Origin: Haloarcula halophila
Lineage (GTDB): Archaea; Halobacteriota; Halobacteria; Halobacteriales; Haloarculaceae
NCBI RefSeq assembly: GCF_029278565.1
Contig: NZ_CP119561.1
Span: forward strand, 1 to 64,000
Reading direction: 5' to 3'
Length of the DNA stretch: 64,000 nt
Part shown: piece after piece, positions 9,435-19,447 of the stretch
How the letters are laid out: every line of letters begins with the position of its first letter
Position numbering within the stretch: position 1 is the stretch's first letter
Position numbers and translations under genes: made by a program
Notes under the pieces: model-generated
The model's database searches: none
What the model saw: only the letters and a program-made list of their open reading frames with translations
What the model was told of the DNA's origin: nothing

Positions 9435-10297
9435 CTATCCCGTCCCTGCCTGCATCTGCACGCAGAGATGAGCTTGTCCTGGAACAGTAGGAACACGATG
9501 AACAGCGGCAGCGAGATGAGCGCCAGGTTCGCCATCAAGCGGTTAGATTCCTGAGCGTAGACGCTCTGCAGTGTGGTCGCGCCCACGGGCAGGGTGTACG
9601 CCGCCTCGTTCTGCAGAACGATCAGCGGCCAGAGATACTGGTTCCAGCTCCAGACGAACACGAACAGCGCCAGGGCCGTGATCACCGGCAGCGACAGCGG
9701 AAGGATGATTTGGGCGTAGATGCGGAACGTCGAGAAGCCGTCCAGGCGAGCTGACTCCTCAAGATCCTCGGGGATGTCCCGGAAGAACTGCACTAGCAGG
9801 AACACCCCGAGTGGCCCGGCGACGAACGGAAAAACAAGGGCCTGGTAGCTGTTGACCCACCCTAGGCGATTGATCAGCGTGAATAGCGGGATAACGTTGA
9901 TCTGGGGCGGAACCATGAATGACGCGATGATGATCCCCAGAATGGCCTTGCGTCCCGGCCACTCTAGGCGCGTCAGCGAGAACGCCACCATGGAGTCGAC
10001 CACGACGATGAGAGCGGTCGTGGTGCTGGCGATGATGAACGTGTTGAGGATCCAGCGTCCGAGCAGGTCGCTCGTGGTGATCGTCTCGATCCAGAACGCG
10101 AGCGTCACCCGGGTGGGGACCCACTGGAAGCCGAACAGTTGTGTCGAGGGGGTCACTGACAGCGCGAACATCCGGAGCAGAGGGATGAACCACAGCAGCG
10201 CCAGGCCGTACAGGACCACGTAGACGCCGACCTCGTAGAGGGTCTGAACGTCCACCCGGACGTCGATCAGGTCTTTGGCCGTGTCGGCAAACGACAT
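9435..10297 (-). CDS. Sugar ABC transporter permease (MalG/UgpE type), small C-terminal frameshift
   Basis: The protein starts MSFADTAKDLIDVRVDVQ and has six membrane segments. The EAA loop of CUT1 permeases is visible as EESARLDGFSTFRIYAQIILP. Near 9466 the frame shifts: one frame reads on into the next gene, while the other gives MQAGTG and stops at 9435, 3 nt before the DUF624-like start. The ATG at 10297 overlaps the TGA of the partner permease, so the two are translationally coupled. It forms the membrane channel with the other permease for import of an oligosaccharide, plausibly a fructan/sucrose-type sugar given the GH32 gene. Confidence 0.85.
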
Positions 10298-11207
10298 CAG
10301 CCCTCCACCCCTGGCCGACGAGGTAGTAGTTGATGATTGAGACCCCAACGAGGATAATCAGGATGACGTAGCCGACGGCGGCGCCGTACCCAAGGTCGAA
10401 CGTCTGGAAGCCCAGCTGGTAGAGGTAGTACACCAGGGTATTGGTCGAACCGTTCGGACCGCCTGTCGTCATCGTCTGGACTTGGCCGAACACCCGGAAC
10501 TGGAAGACGGTTCCCGCGATCAGCACGAACATGATGGAGTTGCGCATCTGTGGGAGAGTGACGTCCTTGAACTGCCGGAGAGGACCAGCACCGTCGAGTT
10601 GGGCGGCCTCATAGAGGCGCTCGGAGACGCCCTGTCTGCCCGCCAGCAGGATTGCGAAATAGAAGCCGGCCTGCCACCAGACGGTCACCAGGGCCAGTGC
10701 GGGCATCGCGAACGCTTCCTGGCCGAGGACGTTGCCCACGAGCCAGCCGACGTGATGGGTGAAAGCGCCGTTTGCCGAGTACAGCTGCAGCCAGAGGAAC
10801 CCGACGATAGAGACGGTCATGACGTACGGGACAAAGTAGAAGAACTTCAGCACCTTCGTACCCTTCACGCCGCGGTTGATCCCCAGCGCCATCGCGAGGC
10901 TGACGAGCAACAGCAACGGGACCGTCAGCACGACGAACCAGGTGGTGTTCTTGAGCGCCTGCCAGAACATCGGGTCCTGAAGCAGAGTCGCGTAGTTCTG
11001 GAGGCCGACGAACTCCGACTGCGCCGGGTTCAGAAGGTTCCACTCGAAGAAGCTCATGTACAGTCCTTTCAATAAGGGGTACACGAGGAACACCGCGAAG
11101 ATGGCGAGGTACGGCAGCGCGAAGGCGTACGCCTCGAGTGTCTCCCGGTCGATCCACTGTCGGAGGTCGGCCGCGAACGCCGGTCCGGTATCCGATTCCA
11201 CCGACAT
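10297..11207 (-). CDS. Sugar ABC transporter permease (MalF/UgpA type), frameshift near the C-terminus
   Basis: The N-terminus MSVESDTGPAFAADLRQWID is cytoplasmic and is followed by AYAFALPYLAIFAVFLVYPL, the first of about six membrane spans. The EAA motif reads YEAAQLDGAGPLRQFKDVTLP. At about 10311 a G4 run must be G5 for the frame to close as LVGQGVEG and TGA at 10297; otherwise the frame runs on without meaning. The start at 11207 follows the binding-protein stop by 1 nt. Confidence 0.85.
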
Positions 11208-11208
11208 G

Positions 11209-12607
11209 CTAGCTCATCCTGTCGCTGATGGCGTTGGCCGACTGGGTGAGCGCCTCCTGGGGTTCCATGTTCTGAGCGTAGATCGACGACAGTGACTTCC
11301 CGATCTCGGGTGCGTACAGGTCGATCGTCGCCCGTGGCTGGTAGGTGAGCTGACCATTGCTCGCCATCTCTTGGAGCGTCTTGACAATCTCGTACTTCTG
11401 GTAGATCGGGTGGCTGGTCACCGTGTCCGAGGTCGCCACCTCTGGCGTCGAGGGGAGGTGGGTCGCCTTCGTCGCCCAGATTGGGTTGTTCTGGGTGACG
11501 TACTCGACGAACTTCACCCGCGCCTCCTTCTCGGCCTCGGTATGGTCCGGGTTCGATGGGAAAAAGAAGCCATTGCTCTCACAGAACGTACTCTTGGTGT
11601 CGCCGCCGAAACCCCAGGGCTGGTGGTAGGTAAACTCCAGACCGTCGATAAACTCGTTTTGCTCGTTCTGGAAGTTATTGGCTGTCCAGTTGCCGATGAA
11701 CCCCATCCCTGCCTGGTCGTTCTTGAACTCGTTGACGCGGATGTTCGAGTCCGAAATGTCGTCTGCGTTGTCCCAGTTGCGCTGGCCGGTCACTAAGTCG
11801 TAGAATTCAGCGGCGGCTATCCCTGCGTCGCTCTCATGGAACACTGGCTGGCCGAGGTCGCCGTCCTCGCCCTCGAACATTTTGCCACCCTGCTGGCGAA
11901 GCAGCGAGTAGTAGACCCGGAAACCGGCGAAACTGTTGTTCGCAGTCTGGAGGAAGAACGGCCGCTTGTCGGTGTTCTCTTGGATGGCGTTGGCTGCACT
12001 GACGAACTCGTCGTGGGTCGTCGGCTGCATGGGGGCGCCGGCCTCCTCAAGGACCGTGTCGTTGGTCGCAAGCATCATCGCGTGGATATCCATCGGCAGG
12101 GCAACGACGTTGCCACCGGCCGTCGCAGCGGGTTCGACGAGGTCGTAGTACGGGTTCAGCCCGTCCGACAGGTAGTCGTCGATGGGGTCCAGGATGCCCT
12201 TCGCTTCGTAGTACGACGAGAACGACATCCAGTAGGTGAACACGTGCGGCGTGTTCCCTGAGGCCGCAGCCGAGACGACCTTTGTTGGGACGTCGCCGAA
12301 CGGCACCGCCTGCGTGTTGACCGTGATGTTGGGATTCCGTTCCTCAAACTCGTTTTTCAGCTTCTTCATCTCGGAATCCTCGGTGCCGCCGAAGTAGTCC
12401 CAGAATTCGATTTCGACCTGCTGGTCGGTTGTGCTCCCCGTGGTCGTGCCACTGCCGCCGTCGCTACCATCACTGCCACTGCCTCCATCGCCGCCGTTGC
12501 CGTCACCGGTACAGCCCGCGAGTCCGGCCGCAAGTGGTCGTAAGGACAGCGCGACGCGAGATGCGATCAGTGTTCGATTCGGTCGTACGGTTGGTATTAT
12601 CTGACAT
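11209..12607 (-). CDS. Sugar-binding lipoprotein of the ABC transporter, frameshift in the signal region
   Basis: The N-terminus has a Tat motif (SRRAVLTT) from the ATG at 12607; a frameshift near 12535 is needed to reach LAAGLAGCTGDGNGG, whose Cys is the lipid-anchored residue, followed by a Gly/Ser-rich linker typical of haloarchaeal lipoproteins. The mature part reads VEIEFWDYFGGTEDSEMKK, the opening of CUT1-type (family 1) sugar-binding proteins, then FPSNPDHTEAEKEARVKFVE and related C-terminal features. It binds the sugar outside the cell and delivers it to the two permeases. Without the restored base, translation would start at MKKLKNEFEERNPN and lose the anchor. Confidence 0.8.
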
Positions 12608-12648: not shown

Positions 12649-13791
12649 TCAGGATTTGATTGCTGACGCCTCCTCTGACCCCGTGACGCCGGTTTCATCC
12701 TCGGTGAGAAGGTTCTCGTCGGTCATGTCGTCGAAAACGTGGACGTGTTCCTCAGGAAGCGTGAACGCGACTTCCTCTCCCGATCTGAAGTTGGTACTCC
12801 CGTCGACGCGGACCGTCCATTCCGTGTCGCCGGACGAGAGATAGAGGTAGTTGTCGCTCCCTTCGTGTTCAAGGACATCGAGTGTCGCAGTGACATCGTC
12901 TTCGCCAGTGCCGACTGCAACGTGTTCGGGACGGATCCCGAGCACGAGGGAGTCGCCCGTCGAACGCCGGCGGATACGGGTTGCTATCTCATCCGAAACA
13001 GTATAGCTGAACGCGTCAGCAACCAGTCGGTCATTATTTAGTGTGACGCCGAAGAAGTTCATCGACGGCGAGCCGATGAAATCAGCGACGAACCGGTTGG
13101 CCGGTTCTGCATACACTTCGCGGGGTGTGCCGACCTGCTGGATTTCGCCGTCGTTGAGGACGACGATCCGGTCGGACATCGTCATCGCCTCGGTCTGGTC
13201 GTGAGTGACGTACACCGAGGTCGTCTCCAGGTCTTCCTGAATACGCTGGAGTTCGGTCCGCATGTGGAGCCTGAGCTTCGCATCGAGGTTCGACAGCGGT
13301 TCGTCGAACAGGAACACTTCAGGCTGGCGGACGATGGCACGTCCCGTGGCGACGCGTTGCTGCTGGCCGCCCGAGAGGTTGTTAGGCTTCTTTTCTAGCA
13401 GATCCTCAATTCCCATCATCTCCGCAGTCTCTTCAACTCGCTGTTCGATTGCTCCCTTCGAGAGGTCCGTCGTGAGCTTCAGTCCGTAGGACATGTTCTT
13501 CCGGACGGACATGTGAGGGTACAGCGCGTAGTTCTGGAACACCATCGCCACGCCGCGATCCTGTGGTGCGACGTTGTTCACCACCTGTTCGCCGATGCGG
13601 ATCTCGCCGTCCGTGATGTCCTCCAGGCCGGCGATCATCCGGAGCAACGTCGACTTCCCTGAGCCGGATGGGCCGACGATCGTGAGAAACTCGCCGTCGT
13701 TGACGGTAAGGGTTACATCATCGACGGCCCGGATGATCCCAGAGTCGTCGTCGTACTCCTTTCGTACATTTTCGATCATTATCCTACTCAT
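12649..13791 (-). CDS. Sugar ABC transporter ATPase (MalK/UgpC/MsmK type)
   Basis: Walker A GPSGSGKSTLLRMIAGLED, signature LSGGQQQRVATGRAIVR and Walker B EVFLFDEPLSNLDAKLR are all intact, and the C-terminal TOBE-like regulatory domain includes LVLGIRPEHVAVGTGEDD. The 380-residue length is normal for the CUT1 ATPase. The likely start is MSRIMIENVRKEY at 13791, with an alternative Met at 13779; an open frame continues further upstream but that extension is not homologous in appearance. It powers import by the two permeases and may be shared with other transporters, as MsmK-type ATPases often are. Confidence 0.9.
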   Translation of the reverse strand: MSRIMIENVRKEYDDDSGIIRAVDDVTLTVNDGEFLTIVGPSGSGKSTLLRMIAGLEDITDGEIRIGEQVVNNVAPQDRGVAMVFQNYALYPHMSVRKNMSYGLKLTTDLSKGAIEQRVEETAEMMGIEDLLEKKPNNLSGGQQQRVATGRAIVRQPEVFLFDEPLSNLDAKLRLHMRTELQRIQEDLETTSVYVTHDQTEAMTMSDRIVVLNDGEIQQVGTPREVYAEPANRFVADFIGSPSMNFFGVTLNNDRLVADAFSYTVSDEIATRIRRRSTGDSLVLGIRPEHVAVGTGEDDVTATLDVLEHEGSDNYLYLSSGDTEWTVRVDGSTNFRSGEEVAFTLPEEHVHVFDDMTDENLLTEDETGVTGSEEASAIKS

Positions 13792-13841
13792 CACCAGCCA
13801 CTGTGGACCCCTTCGTATTAATTTTTTCCCCACAGCTGTGA

Positions 13842-16007
13842 TTAATCCTTTATACTGGTAGAGGGTCGCATCGTTCCCATCTCCCACACATCGAGTGATT
13901 GAACGGTTACTGGCCGGTTTTCGGCGTAGAGATCGATTTCGACTGCGTCTTCTCGCGTGGGATAGATCCGCGAGGTGAGACATTGTGCATCGGCGGTGAA
14001 CAGTTCTAAGACCGACCGGTCTAGAAAACATCGCAGTTCGAACTTACCGTCTTCTGTCAACCGAATCGGCATCGAATGGTTTTGGTCGGCCGGTGCATCA
14101 TCCAGACTCGAAGCCGATCGGTCAACCCAGCTTCGCGGTACTGTGGCCGCACGCGGATGACTGTCCGCTCTTGATCGTCTGGGGACGCCCGCAGGACGAA
14201 CCCAAATTCGCCTGTCCGTTCCGCATTGACCGTTGCCCGGATTTCTAGGGTATCTCCCGAGACTCCGGGTAGGTGTCCGCTCTCGTCGGGATGAATCGTC
14301 ACATCCTCGAACGACTGATGAGAACGACGTAGATCAGTCACCTCGCTCGGGACATCGACCTGCAGGCGTCCCGCTTCTGTAGAGAGAACGCGCGGGAGCG
14401 ACATCGCGCCGGACCACCCGGCGTTCCACTGAGCTGTCGAGTCTCGATCCTCCTTAAGCCAACCGAACGTAATCGTTCGTCCGTCGTCGTCAGTGAACGA
14501 CTGCGGTGCATAAAAGACACCGTGATCGAGGATGCCACGCTCTCGTGGTTCCAGCCGATCCGACTCTGTGTTGTACGGGCCGAGGAAGTACCAGACGTTT
14601 GAATAGTCCGAGACGTGGAGGACCGTATCGTCGCCAAATCTCAGGAGTTCCGGACACTCCCACATCGGTCCTGTCTCGCGCCAATCGCCAGTCAGCACTG
14701 GATGACAGTACTCCCATTCATGCAGGTCCGGGGACCGATAGAGCAGCGCCGCTCCGCCCTCGTCAGCGATCCCGCTCCCGATGAGCTGGTACCAGTCACC
14801 GTCAGCACGCCAGACGCAGTGGTCCCGAAACTCGGCGTTCCAGTCAATGCTAGTCAGGATATCTATATGAGCCGGTGGCTCCTCTATTACCGGATTCGTG
14901 GGTTCTTTTCTCCAGGATCGAAGCGTGTTGTCTTCGGCCCGGGCCAGGCACGGGAGCTGGTCGCACCCGTCGCCGCCAGTGTACATCACGCGGGGGATGC
15001 CGTCATCGTCGACGAAGCACCCCGACCAACAACCGTCGGAGTCGGGCCCGTCAGGGTCCGGTTCGAGAGCGATCGGTTCGTCTTGCCAGTGAACCAAATC
15101 GTCGCTGACGGCGTGTCCCCAGTGGATCGTATCGTGGAACGGCCCGGCCGGGTTGTACTGGTAGAACAGATGATACCGCCCGTTCCACTGGACCACACCA
15201 TTCGGATCGTTGAGCCAATTCGCCGGCGGCGTGAAGTGGTAGGCTGGCCGGTGTTTTGCATCGTCGACCGTATCACGAAGCGCGGAAAACTCCTGGCGAC
15301 CTTTCGGCCGACCAATGGGCGACGGCTCAGTCTCGCCTCCAGCGAGATACGACACGGCGTTCGAGAGTAACTTCTGTTGTACGCTGCTCTCTCGCTCGAA
15401 ATTCAGACCGTGGCCGATCCCGAGGACGCGACCATCTCCGACTCCCCATCGGAGAATAGACTTCTGGGCGTATTTATCGGTGCCGTCGGCCTGGCGAGCC
15501 GCAAGCACGTCTGCATCGTGTGGCATCAGAGACTCGTAGTAAGTGGCGACGCCACTTGATACAGGCGTCTCCCCCGGTCGGAGGGCGTCTATTTCGTCGA
15601 AGAGTGGATGGCTGGTGTACGCGCGACGGAGGAGGTACCCGTCGTTGTCAGCTCTCAGCGTGCTGGGTGACATCTGGATCATACGTTTCGATCCCCAGTA
15701 TACTGGCACCCTCTAGTGCACCATGCGTGAGGAGAAGTCCGCCGCCGTCTTCGAGAAACGGGCGAATCTGCTCGGCGATAGACGTGAGCGCCTCGCGGCT
15801 CGTCTCGTCGAGAGATGTCGTCCGGTGCCACCAAAACACGTCGGTATCGTTGATTTTTGTTGCGGTCAGATCGTCGAGCGTGCAGTGAGTGCCGCCGTGT
15901 TTGCCGTACGCACGCAACTGAGCCCGTGTCGGTTCAGAGACGGTCAGACACAGGATATCCCGTTCCATTCTGGTAGCTCCAGCGGGAACATTGTTGGTGC
16001 TATTCAT
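13842..16007 (-). CDS. GH32 fructosidase (levanase/invertase-like) with extra N-terminal domain; two frameshifts
   Basis: The GH32 core shows NWLNDPNGVV (nucleophile Asp), FRDHCVW (RDP-like motif with H for P) and MWECPELLRF (EC motif acid/base Glu), followed by the beta-sandwich ending FLDRSVLELFTADAQ. Frameshifts near 15665 and 14090 divide it into three open pieces. The first ~220 residues (VSEPTRAQLRAYGK; GGGLLLTHGALEG; GIGHGLNFERESS) look like a ThuA/glutamine-amidotransferase-like fold fused ahead of the hydrolase. No signal peptide is seen, so it is probably cytoplasmic, cleaving imported fructose-containing sugars. The start at 16007 lies ~28 nt after a TATA-like box (16032-16039). 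Confidence 0.8.
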
Positions 16008-16028
16008 ATTAACCACAGGAGTGATGAA

Positions 16029-16060
16029 ATTGTATAAATCTATGTGTCCCGGACGCATAG
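16029..16060. promoter_or_regulatory. Palindromic operator and TATA box between GH32 and TrmB-kinase genes
   Basis: CTATGTGTCC-C-GGACGCATAG (16040-16060) is a 21-bp inverted repeat with one mismatched pair. It abuts the minus-strand TATA-like ATTTATACAAT (16029-16039) and lies 50 bp before the TrmB-kinase ATG at 16111. The layout suits control of both divergent genes by the TrmB fusion protein. Confidence 0.55.
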
Positions 16061-16110
16061 GGAGCGACAGGAAAGTAAATGGCTTACCGTGGTAGACTGA
16101 GGTCTAGACA

Positions 16111-18326
16111 ATGAGAGGAGAGGACGATGCAAAGATAGCGATGCTCCACGAGACGCTTAGAGATCACGTCGGGCTCTCCAAGTACGAAGCTGAAGTGTAT
16201 CTCGCGCTCGTCCGCGGCGGGACACAGACGATGAACGATCTCGCCGAGATGAGTGATGTGCCCAAACAACGCGTGTACGACACGGTCAGCTCGCTCCGTG
16301 ACGATGGCTTTGTCGAAGTCATCGACGACTATCCGCGGAAAGCGTATGCGGTCAACCCAAGCGAAGCGCTTGGACAGGTGCGTGAAGAAATCGAACGTGC
16401 CGAAGACGAACTGGAAAAGTTCCATGAGAGCGTCGAAACCGTCGAGAGCGGAGTTGCGTTGTTCAAAAGCGAGTCGACGATTCAGAAGTACGTCACCGAC
16501 CTGATTTCGACTGCCGAGCGAGATGTTCTCCTGCTCGTTCCCTACGACCGCCTCGACGAGATCACTGACCTCCTGGCCGAGTGTGAAGACTTGCGACTCC
16601 GTCTGATCATCTCAGACCTTTCACCCTGGAAACGAGCGAAGACTCGGTCGCTATCGACCGTACGCTTCCGGACACCGTTGACGATGTCCGTGGCGTAACC
16701 TCGACTGAGGACTTCGTACTGATTGCGGACCGAGATCATGCACTCTACTGGGCACGTCGTGGTTTCCGGGGGCAGAGTGAGGACGACCAAGCCTACTACG
16801 TCTCGAATCCACGGTTGGTGTTCGTCCTCGATCGGTTTGTTTCTGAATCCGTGTGGCCCTACGCTCGGTCCATCGCCGGTCAGGAGCGTTCTGCATCGCT
16901 GCCCAGCGAATACCTTCGGATCCGTGATTGTCTGGAAGACATCGACGAACTCGCCGACCGCCGACCGATAGATGATATCGAAGTCAAATTCGAGGGTTAC
17001 GATACGGAAAGCGGTGAAGCCGTCGAACGGGCTGGGACGCTCACCAGTTATTATTTTACCGAATACGACATCAGGGCATCTCTCACACTTTCGCTACACC
17101 TTGACGCCGATACTGTTCAACCGACACTCGCCAGTGTCGGGGGTATCGGGGCTCGTAAAGTGGACTACGCGGCTGAACGAATCGTCATCAGGGAGTACGA
17201 TGGCCATGACAGCAACGACCCAACCAACGAGACAGCACGCTATCTTAAACAATGTCGTTCGGAGCTCCCCACAGAATTAGGCGACGCCTCCATCGCAATC
17301 GGGTTCGATGCGTTCGTGGACCGCATGCGCGAATTTATTGAACCCTCCGGTGACCGCTACAATCACATCTCGCAGTTCGAGCGGTTCCGAGAGTCGCTCG
17401 TAAAGTACGAGGCCAGCGAGAGTTCGCCACGTGCCCTCTGGAGAGAAACTGAAACCGAACCGGGCGGCCACGCCTCTCACCTCGGCAACGTGTTCAACGG
17501 TCTGGGGTACGATTTGACGCTCGTCGGTCGGTTCGGGAGTCCGATCCACCCGGAGTTCGAATCGGCGTTCAATGATCAGACGATAATCAGCGTCGGACCG
17601 ACGACCTCAACGGACTATGTCCGGTTCAAAAACAGGAATTTCCTGCTGACGGAACCGAACACCGATCCGCTAAACTGGTCGACTCTCACGGAACAGAGCG
17701 ATCGCTCGAAACTGGTCGACAGTTTCGATGAGACTGCAGCCGTCGCTCTCGGTACATGGTGGGCGACACCCGATCTTCCCGATATTCTCGAAGGGATGGC
17801 TGAAGAACTTTGGCCCCAACTCGAATCGCCACCCTCGTTCGTTCATCTATCAACTGGCCAAGTTTCAGAGCTCTCGAGTGAAACAATCGAATGGGGGTGT
17901 GATGCCCTTAAGAAGCTTGATGAACATGTATCCGTCGTCGTTACTGCGAATCGCGATCAGACTCGACAACTCTGCGACACACTTGTTCCCGACTCCGGAA
18001 CGAAATCGTCCGTGCAGCGGCTCCGAAAGCAACTCGGCGTTTCACAATTCGTCATGCATTCACTAAAAGGCGCGACGCTTGCCAGTGCTGACGGAGTACT
18101 GACTGTCAGTACTCCGCAGATCCCGAGTCCGCGTCGCGTCCGCAACGTCGACGATCACTTCAAGAGTGGTTACGTGCTCGGTCTCGCTGAAGGCCTATCA
18201 GCCGGAGCGTCACTCGTACTCGGAAACGCTATCGCCGGGTACTTTGTCCGATACGACAGAACCCCGGACGAGGAGGAACTCCGGTCGTATCTCGCAGACT
18301 ACCACGCCCACTACGAAGAATCGTGA
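16111..18326 (+). CDS. TrmB-type sugar-sensing regulator fused to a PfkB-like carbohydrate kinase; one frameshift
   Basis: Residues 1-100 form the TrmB winged helix (GLSKYEAEVYLALVRGG, MSDVPKQRVYDTVSSL) and a coiled dimer helix. A missing base near 16622 separates this from TLETSEDSVAIDRTLPDTV and the sugar-binding domain, which includes YVSNPRLVFVLDRFVSESVW and SYYFTEYDIRASLTLSLHLD. From about residue 390 the protein continues into a PfkB-like domain: IAIGFDAFVDRMREF, GGHASHLGNVFNGLGYDLTL, VGRFGSPIHPEF and the C-terminal SAGASLVLGNAIAGYF. Such a fusion would couple sugar sensing to sugar phosphorylation. Kinase activity is uncertain because the canonical GAGD catalytic motif is not evident. 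It faces the GH32/ABC operon and probably regulates it. Confidence 0.75.
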
Positions 18327-18401: not shown

Positions 18402-19447
18402 CGCTCTTATGTAGAATCGCGGAAAGCCCCGATAACGAGACACTCAACGATTGGCTCGGCGGATTCACCCGCTAGGTTGAGTGACCGAACGATGCCAAAG
18501 GTGTGAGCGGCCTGCTCCAAGCCCTGCTTGGACAGGCCGCGAAACTTCCGCAACCACGGCTGGACGAGCGAAAACAGGCACTCAGCCTGGTTAATATGAA
18601 CGCCCTCGGGCGAAACATACCGCTCTTTGTGGACGACCGTTAGGTGGTCAAACTCCATCTGTCGGTATGCCTGGAGTCCGTCGGTCCAGACCTCTCCCAG
18701 CGGCTGTGAGAGGTCTTCAACCTCCTAAATCACCGGTTCAAGATCACCGCTGTAGTCGATGCCCAGTTGGCTGCGAATCACGCGAAGCGAGTCGCGGCAC
18801 GCCGCGACGAGCGTCAGCTGATCACCGTGACGACCTCGCCAGCGTGATCGGCCTGTTTGGGACGAGCAGCCGCGTGAACGGCTGTTCCGCGGCGGCTCTT
18901 GGCCTTTGTAGCCCGAACAAACCTCGCCGGATTCGTCGACTTGCGTCGGTCCATCGATGGTCTGGTCGAGTAGCTTCCAGACGACGGGGAAGCCGCGCTG
19001 AACTGCGGCTTCCACGTCTCGAATGGCTGTATAGACGGTTCTATAGGCTCGACCGAAGAACGGCGCGATCTGGTTGAGACTCAGTAACGTATCGGCGTAC
19101 AGCGTGAACGCGAGAAGCACCTCGCCGCAGGAGAGGTGCTTCTCGTGGAACGGGGTTCCGTAGGTGAAAACCGGCTTGAAATTGCAGTCACGGCACCAGG
19201 TTCGGTCGATACTCTCCCACGTCACGATGCTCTGGTGGCCGCACCGTGGACAGGACGTATTCTCCCAGAATTCCTTGAGTCGCCGCTTGATACGGGCATC
19301 GAGCGGTTCTGTGTCGATCTCGACGACGCCCAGCTCGATCAGCTCTCGAAACATCGCTCCGAACGCTGGCTGAGCAGAAACCATATCGCCACATTAGCGC
19401 CGGTTCAGTGTAACAATACGGTCTTTCCGCAGCTTTGCATAAGAGCG
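18402..19447 (-). mobile_element. IS1595-type (ISH4-like) insertion sequence
   Basis: CGCTCTTATG at 18402-18411 and CATAAGAGCG at 19438-19447 are matching inverted ends around one transposase gene. Weak similarity extends a few bases outward, so the true ends may lie up to 15 bp further out. It sits between the sugar locus and the polymerase operon. Confidence 0.65.
18407..19384 (-). pseudogene. IS1595-family transposase with an in-frame amber codon
   Basis: A zinc ribbon (CPRCGHQS...WCRDCNFK) opens the protein, followed by the DDE-like core: QVDESGEVCSGYKGQ, GEVWTDGLQAYRQM and HINQAECLFSLVQPWLRKF, typical of IS1595. The frame is interrupted by a TAG at 18725-18727, and the same frame then continues to 18407. 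The two parts are in phase, so this is a nonsense mutation (a C-to-T change from CAG would explain it) rather than an indel, and the element is probably unable to transpose by itself. Confidence 0.8.

Follow-up and report, generated by a model that had tools for sequence, protein, structure and literature searches.

The window analysed here, a stretch of 64,000 bases, is the start of contig C3 (363,408 bases) of Haloarcula halophila and carries a gene in which a TrmB-type regulator is fused to a ketohexokinase (Khk) domain. A GH32 gene diverges from it, together with genes for a sugar ABC transport system (Table 1). The fusion gene had been placed at 16029-18326 in an earlier sequence-only reading, and its start is corrected here to 16111. 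At its N-terminus the GH32 protein is extended by more than 200 residues, for which there is a weak DUF4960/ThuA-like match only. Directly downstream of the fusion gene lies a transposase-like ORF (18725-19384, minus strand), of zinc-ribbon type by eye.

Table 1. Features of the TrmB-Khk locus, in window positions.
Feature	Position	Strand	Remarks
TrmB-Khk fusion gene	16111..18326	+	Terminal copy intact, 738 aa; window copy frameshifted near 16623
TrmB winged-helix DNA-binding domain, PF01978, residues 16-83	16156..16359	+	E=5.4e-19, above cut-off
TrmB sugar-binding domain, PF11495, residues 115-361	16453..17192	+	E=1.4e-24; interrupted by the frameshift
Prokaryotic ketohexokinase (Khk) domain, PF25270, residues 373-731	17226..18302	+	E=4.6e-102
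NVDDHFKSG, where stand-alone Khks have the catalytic [SA]-G-D-H-F-N-A-G	18144..18170	+	Gly lost, Asp kept
Operator candidate TAACCACAGGAGTGATGA (TCATCACTCCTGTGGTTA towards GH32)	16010..16027		Between TATA-like box and GH32 ATG
Near-palindrome of 21 bp, CTATGTGTCCCGGACGCATAG	16040..16060		Once in the window; one mismatched arm pair
Second operator-like site, upstream of malK	13830..13844		Pattern match
Divergent GH32 gene	13841..16007	-	Window copy disrupted by indels near 14128 and 15656; terminal copy intact
malK-type ABC ATPase	12649..13791	-	
Sugar ABC solute-binding protein	11209..12607	-	Window copy shorter owing to an 11-base difference near 12535
Two sugar ABC permeases	9435..11207	-	

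Because the terminal 65.5 kb of C3 (297865-363408) repeats its first 65,526 bases at 99.92%, the contig is read as a circular replicon of about 298 kb that was left untrimmed, with the whole window as its redundant end. The copies differ by 35 events, of which 22 fall at CTAG, 9 in homopolymers and 4 elsewhere. CTAG is methylated in haloarchaea, and the clustering suggests long-read errors linked to base modification. In the window the fusion gene is split into an ORF at 16111-16698 and a second ORF ending at 18326, and its two copies differ solely by one C, at about 16623, where several C follow one another; the terminal copy (L002 385-2601) is a single intact ORF. Since the other copy is intact and the differences resemble long-read error, this frameshift is very probably a sequencing error and not biological, and further frameshifts within the window may be errors as well. 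The sequence-only reading had worried, given the interrupted frame, that two genes might have been joined through misassembly. This is now rejected, as the second copy is intact and the same architecture is encoded in one frame in 15 of 391 genomes and on finished plasmids.

The proposed fusion of TrmB and a kinase fold is real, with all three domains matched by profile in the one 738-aa ORF of the second copy; PF25270 scores 342 bits against a cut-off of 35, and PF01978, PF11495 and PF25270 are present together in all 16 fusions scanned. The kinase part had been called PfkB-like. Its fold is ribokinase-like in the structural models, but its family is PF25270, which points to fructose; PF00294 (PfkB) is not among the families of the window protein, and 1 of the 16 fusions matches it at E<=0.001. 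A model of an orthologue that is 55% identical (L055; mean pLDDT 73.1, pTM 0.53) matches TrmB 3QPH (E=1.3e-19), the sugar-binding domain 2F5T (TM 0.68 by target) and, among ribokinase-fold kinases, 1VM7 (TM 0.69 by target). For the Khk half of the window protein itself, the model (mean pLDDT 63.9, below 50 over residues 24-115) is poor over the presumed sugar pocket and aligns to ribokinase-family kinases at Z 14-17, and a sequence search of the PDB with this half gave weak matches only, the best being a fructokinase.

The fusion had seemed new to the sequence-only reading, but it is not unique to this genome: full-length fusions occur in at least 15 of 391 haloarchaeal genomes (16 genes), a lower bound as the class search scored two candidates per genome and listed part of the matches, and one further genome has a truncated fusion. 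The architecture recurs in several haloarchaeal families. A scan of GTDB r220 species genomes with two short peptide patterns, which is not exhaustive, gave 79 loci with 8 full-length or nearly full-length fusions, all haloarchaeal. Plasmid records add fusions from Halomarina sp. BND7, Natrinema sp. SYSU A 869 and Halomontanus rarus, while the Haloterrigena turkmenica plasmid record repeats G181. With duplicates counted once (L055, L057, L058, L060-L062 and L136 duplicate G368, G158, G299, G316, G112 and G181), GH32 genes lie near 19 of 22 distinct fusion loci within the DNA examined around each, the exceptions being G316, G134 and G118. The public label of the plasmid fusions is 'TrmB family transcriptional regulator sugar-binding domain-containing protein', and such TrmB-only labels conceal the Khk domain. 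The literature searched yielded no account of a TrmB regulator that carries a kinase-derived domain: TrmB with ketohexokinase returned nothing, TrmB with PfkB no such protein among the papers listed (judged by title and abstract start), TrmB with haloarchaea and 'kinase domain' the phrase only in an unrelated table entry, and the wider HTH-kinase literature nothing relevant (judged by title).

The catalytic centre of the Khk half is altered. Where stand-alone Khks have [SA][SA]GD the window protein has NVDD and so lacks an intact Gly-Asp motif; by its domain it belongs to the Khk family, but by its motif it does not qualify as a Khk enzyme. The motif x-G-D-[HY]-F is kept in 35 of 35 sampled stand-alone Khks and aligns with GAGD of the fructokinase 3HJ6; these 35 are chosen higher-scoring matches (L003, which holds the stand-alone khk of the same genome; 14 and 19 loci of searches; L138), excluding lower matches and those with internal stops, such as the ones in G237 and G301. 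Among 21 full-length fusions the motif Gly is lost in 20, G134 alone keeping it, and the motif Asp is D in 10, E in 8, A in 2 and N in 1. The Asp is therefore lost in 11, including most of the window protein's nearest relatives, with at least four changes on the tree (the truncated G118 fusion was omitted from the motif count and the Khk tree and kept in the TrmB tree). All 56 fusions and stand-alone Khks retain Asp404 and Gly452-Gly453; from the ribokinase family, we take these to be the sugar side and the motif Asp to be the catalytic base. The ratio dN/dS is 0.08-0.19 for the Khk half in 6 of 7 pairs, one pair having saturated dS, and 0.04-0.18 for the TrmB half in 7 pairs, with dS above 1 in several pairs; the low values of the Khk half indicate that the altered domain is maintained under purifying selection.

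These residues bear on two points that the sequence-only reading had raised, whether the kinase catalytic residues are present and whether the protein phosphorylates a sugar or uses the kinase fold as a second sensor. The first has a divided answer, with Gly lost and Asp kept. On the second, an altered centre in 20 of 21 fusions favours sensing over phosphorylation, so the sensor half of the proposal fits and the enzymatic half is disfavoured, though the window protein retains the catalytic Asp and may therefore have residual kinase activity. The same genome has another Khk of 377 aa with an intact motif, whose gene lies between two that were named from sequence, one for a PfkB-type kinase and the other for an aldolase-like protein of class I. 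This neighbourhood is like the fructose cluster of Haloarcula hispanica, in which Khk is reported to make F1P (PMC11519228, in part). In G158 and G250 there is no Khk above the Pfam cut-off besides the fusion, whose Asp is E or A.

The TrmB sugar pocket has also changed. Aligned to 3QPH, the window protein keeps Gly320 (G345) and has Val351 for Glu326 and Ala for Asn305, so that it departs from the full set of sugar-contact residues (Asn305, Gly320, Glu326), whose roles are those given in PMC4158304, in part. Glu occupies the Glu326 position in G146, G250, Halomarina and most of the distant fusions, and several close relatives have another residue there. Haloarcula TrmB homologues are reported likewise to retain only some of these residues (PMC10817205, in part), and membership in the TrmB family is accordingly judged here by the domain tests, which the window protein passes.

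In 10 of 10 members of the window's clade, YCACNNNWGTKRTKA lies in the interval that separates the TATA-like box from the start codon of GH32. The operator pattern derived from these ten has 7 further sites in 23 sequences (22 loci, one a duplicate as L136 was retained here, plus the window; 457,579 bases), and 20 shuffles gave a mean of 1.1 sites in all and a maximum of 3. These further sites lie before malK in the window, G146, G250 and Halomarina, before the solute-binding protein gene of Halomarina, before a GH32 gene in G112 and before the genes running into the G316 fusion; the pattern is absent from 11 of the 23 sequences, most of which are distant fusions. In the 4.04-Mb genome the strict form TMAYCACNNNNGTGRTKA is confined to this site and its repeat copy, and the pattern has no match in the 4026 bases of L003 near the stand-alone khk. 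The form resembles the Thermococcales TGM (TATCAC-N5-GTGATA), which is reported to repress when downstream of TATA (PMC4158304, in part).

A 21-bp palindrome in the divergent promoter, which the sequence-only reading had singled out, does exist and adjoins the TATA-like box of the GH32 gene, just upstream. Its right half GGACACATAG is common to orthologous promoters at this place, but its left arm is not conserved in 9 orthologous promoters, and the window has 6 near-palindromes of this kind, so that it does not stand out on its own. It was rejected as the operator, and the TGM-like site on the other side of the TATA-like box is the conserved candidate. A perfect 21-bp palindrome, GAGTACTGACTGTCAGTACTC, lies at 18094-18114, inside the Khk coding region.

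On the sequence evidence, we consider it fairly likely that the fusion is a fructose-responsive local repressor of fructan and sucrose genes in which the Khk domain is mainly a sensor. The protein probably works like TrmB/TrmBL1 and would repress the divergent GH32-malK-ABC genes locally. Its winged helix would bind the TGM-like sites (YCAC-N3-WGTKRTKA) that lie between the TATA-like box and the GH32 start and again before malK. The C-terminal domain appears to derive from a ketohexokinase, with the fold and presumed sugar-side residues kept and the anion-hole Gly lost in the clade, which makes a ligand sensor its most likely role. The ligand would be fructose or its phosphate, and the repressor would be released when fructans or sucrose are available.

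Other readings place the activity or the sensing elsewhere. The protein could be a bifunctional trigger enzyme, whose Khk half phosphorylates fructose so that turnover or substrate occupancy sets DNA binding; the Asp kept in the window copy, as in 10 of 21 fusions in all, would allow this, as would the G134 fusion with its whole motif in an operon with an aldolase-like gene. We consider it unlikely, given the near-general loss of the Gly, the loss of the Asp in most of the nearest relatives, and the intact-motif Khk elsewhere in the same genome. Somewhat less likely again is that sensing stays in the TrmB sugar-binding domain and the Khk half serves for dimerisation or stability only. A complete PF11495 in 16 of 16 fusions is consistent with this, and Pyrococcus TrmB is reported to bind sucrose in that domain (PMC4158304, in part), but Val351 at the Glu326 position, with its replacement in several close relatives, and the retention of the presumed sugar-side residues of the Khk half in 56 of 56 sequences argue against it.

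It could also be that, in place of repression at the start site, the protein activates from a site upstream of TATA, in the palindrome region. Activation from upstream sites is reported for TrmB proteins (PMC4158304, in part), and the right half of the palindrome is shared just upstream of TATA. However, the left half is unconserved, the shared part coincides with the BRE/TATA region and the best conserved dyad lies downstream of TATA, which makes activation the least probable of these three readings. The local repressor with a Khk-derived sensor is the reading that we retain.

The history of the fusion has more than one Khk lineage. In a Khk tree built with the motif left out, the 20 altered fusions form a single branch (100/99) and the Khk domain of G134 nests inside the stand-alone enzymes beside L138 (100/98), whereas in the TrmB tree all fusions, including G134 and G118, join with two TrmB-only proteins (100/100). 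A single origin of all fused Khk domains is rejected by the AU test (p=0.0002), for a group that was chosen after tree inspection and is thus post hoc. Two Khk lineages against one TrmB branch indicate, as far as these trees go, that one TrmB subfamily met Khk at least twice or had its Khk swapped. The G134 fusion (L048 7309-9528) is in an ABC operon and not beside GH32, between the ABC genes and an aldolase-like gene, in an order similar to that of the L138 operon. The G118 fusion (L054 7491-9287) is also inside an ABC operon, with a truncated Khk half; the missing part was sought in a second frame by tblastn with the G134 protein and was not found there, as the one match obtained stops at query residue 640. 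At L138 (5926-7209) a stand-alone Khk lies in an ABC operon with alcohol dehydrogenase and fructose-bisphosphate aldolase. This Khk starts with some 40 residues that look like the end of the TrmB sugar-binding domain, and it is possibly a fission product.

A wider reading, which we hold tentatively and with somewhat more doubt than belief, is that the fusions form a natural series from enzyme to sensor, in which one TrmB subfamily carries Khk domains of two lineages. The polyol-type operon fusion with its motif kept would be a bifunctional regulator-kinase, and the stand-alone Khk of L138, in an operon of similar order, would be a fission product. The fructan/GH32 fusion would have lost the catalytic centre and turned into a sensor of fructose, with decay of the TrmB pocket in the clade of the window protein. 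In such a series, pocket decay together with a sensing Khk domain would mean that sensing moved between domains.

Several known systems share parts of this architecture. The Thermococcales regulators TrmB, TrmBL1 and Tgr (PDB 3QPH, 2F5T) likewise have a winged helix and sugar-binding domain, a TGM-like dyad downstream of TATA, and linkage to sugar ABC transport and glycosidase genes, but are without a kinase domain and have the pocket Glu326 that is absent from the window protein; TrmBL1 is reported to respond to fructose among others (PMC4158304, in part). TrmB of Halobacterium and Haloarcula (VNG_1451C, TrmBHar) has the TrmB domains and is a haloarchaeal sugar regulator, but is without a Khk domain and is reported as a global regulator of gluconeogenesis with another motif (PMC10817205, PMC4158304, both in part); against the NCBIfam halo-TrmB equivalog NF047392 the window protein scores 136.1 bits, below the curated cut-off of 500. 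The Haloarcula ketohexokinases HAH_1078 and rrnAC0343 have PF25270 in common with the window domain and are reported as stand-alone active enzymes (PMC11519228, in part); the Gly-Asp motif, altered in the window domain, is retained by the stand-alone Khks that were sampled.

Joining a sugar-kinase fold to a helix-turn-helix domain and using it as a sensor has precedent in the ROK family proteins NagC and XylR and in bacterial HTH-PfkB proteins. These differ from the fusion in having other kinase or HTH families and in being without a TrmB effector domain. If confirmed, the fusion would show, in haloarchaea that can be cultured and in a form that is tractable, how an enzyme domain came to serve as a ligand sensor, with active and altered Khk versions persisting side by side. 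It would also predict a regulator and an operator for fructan and sucrose use in archaea.
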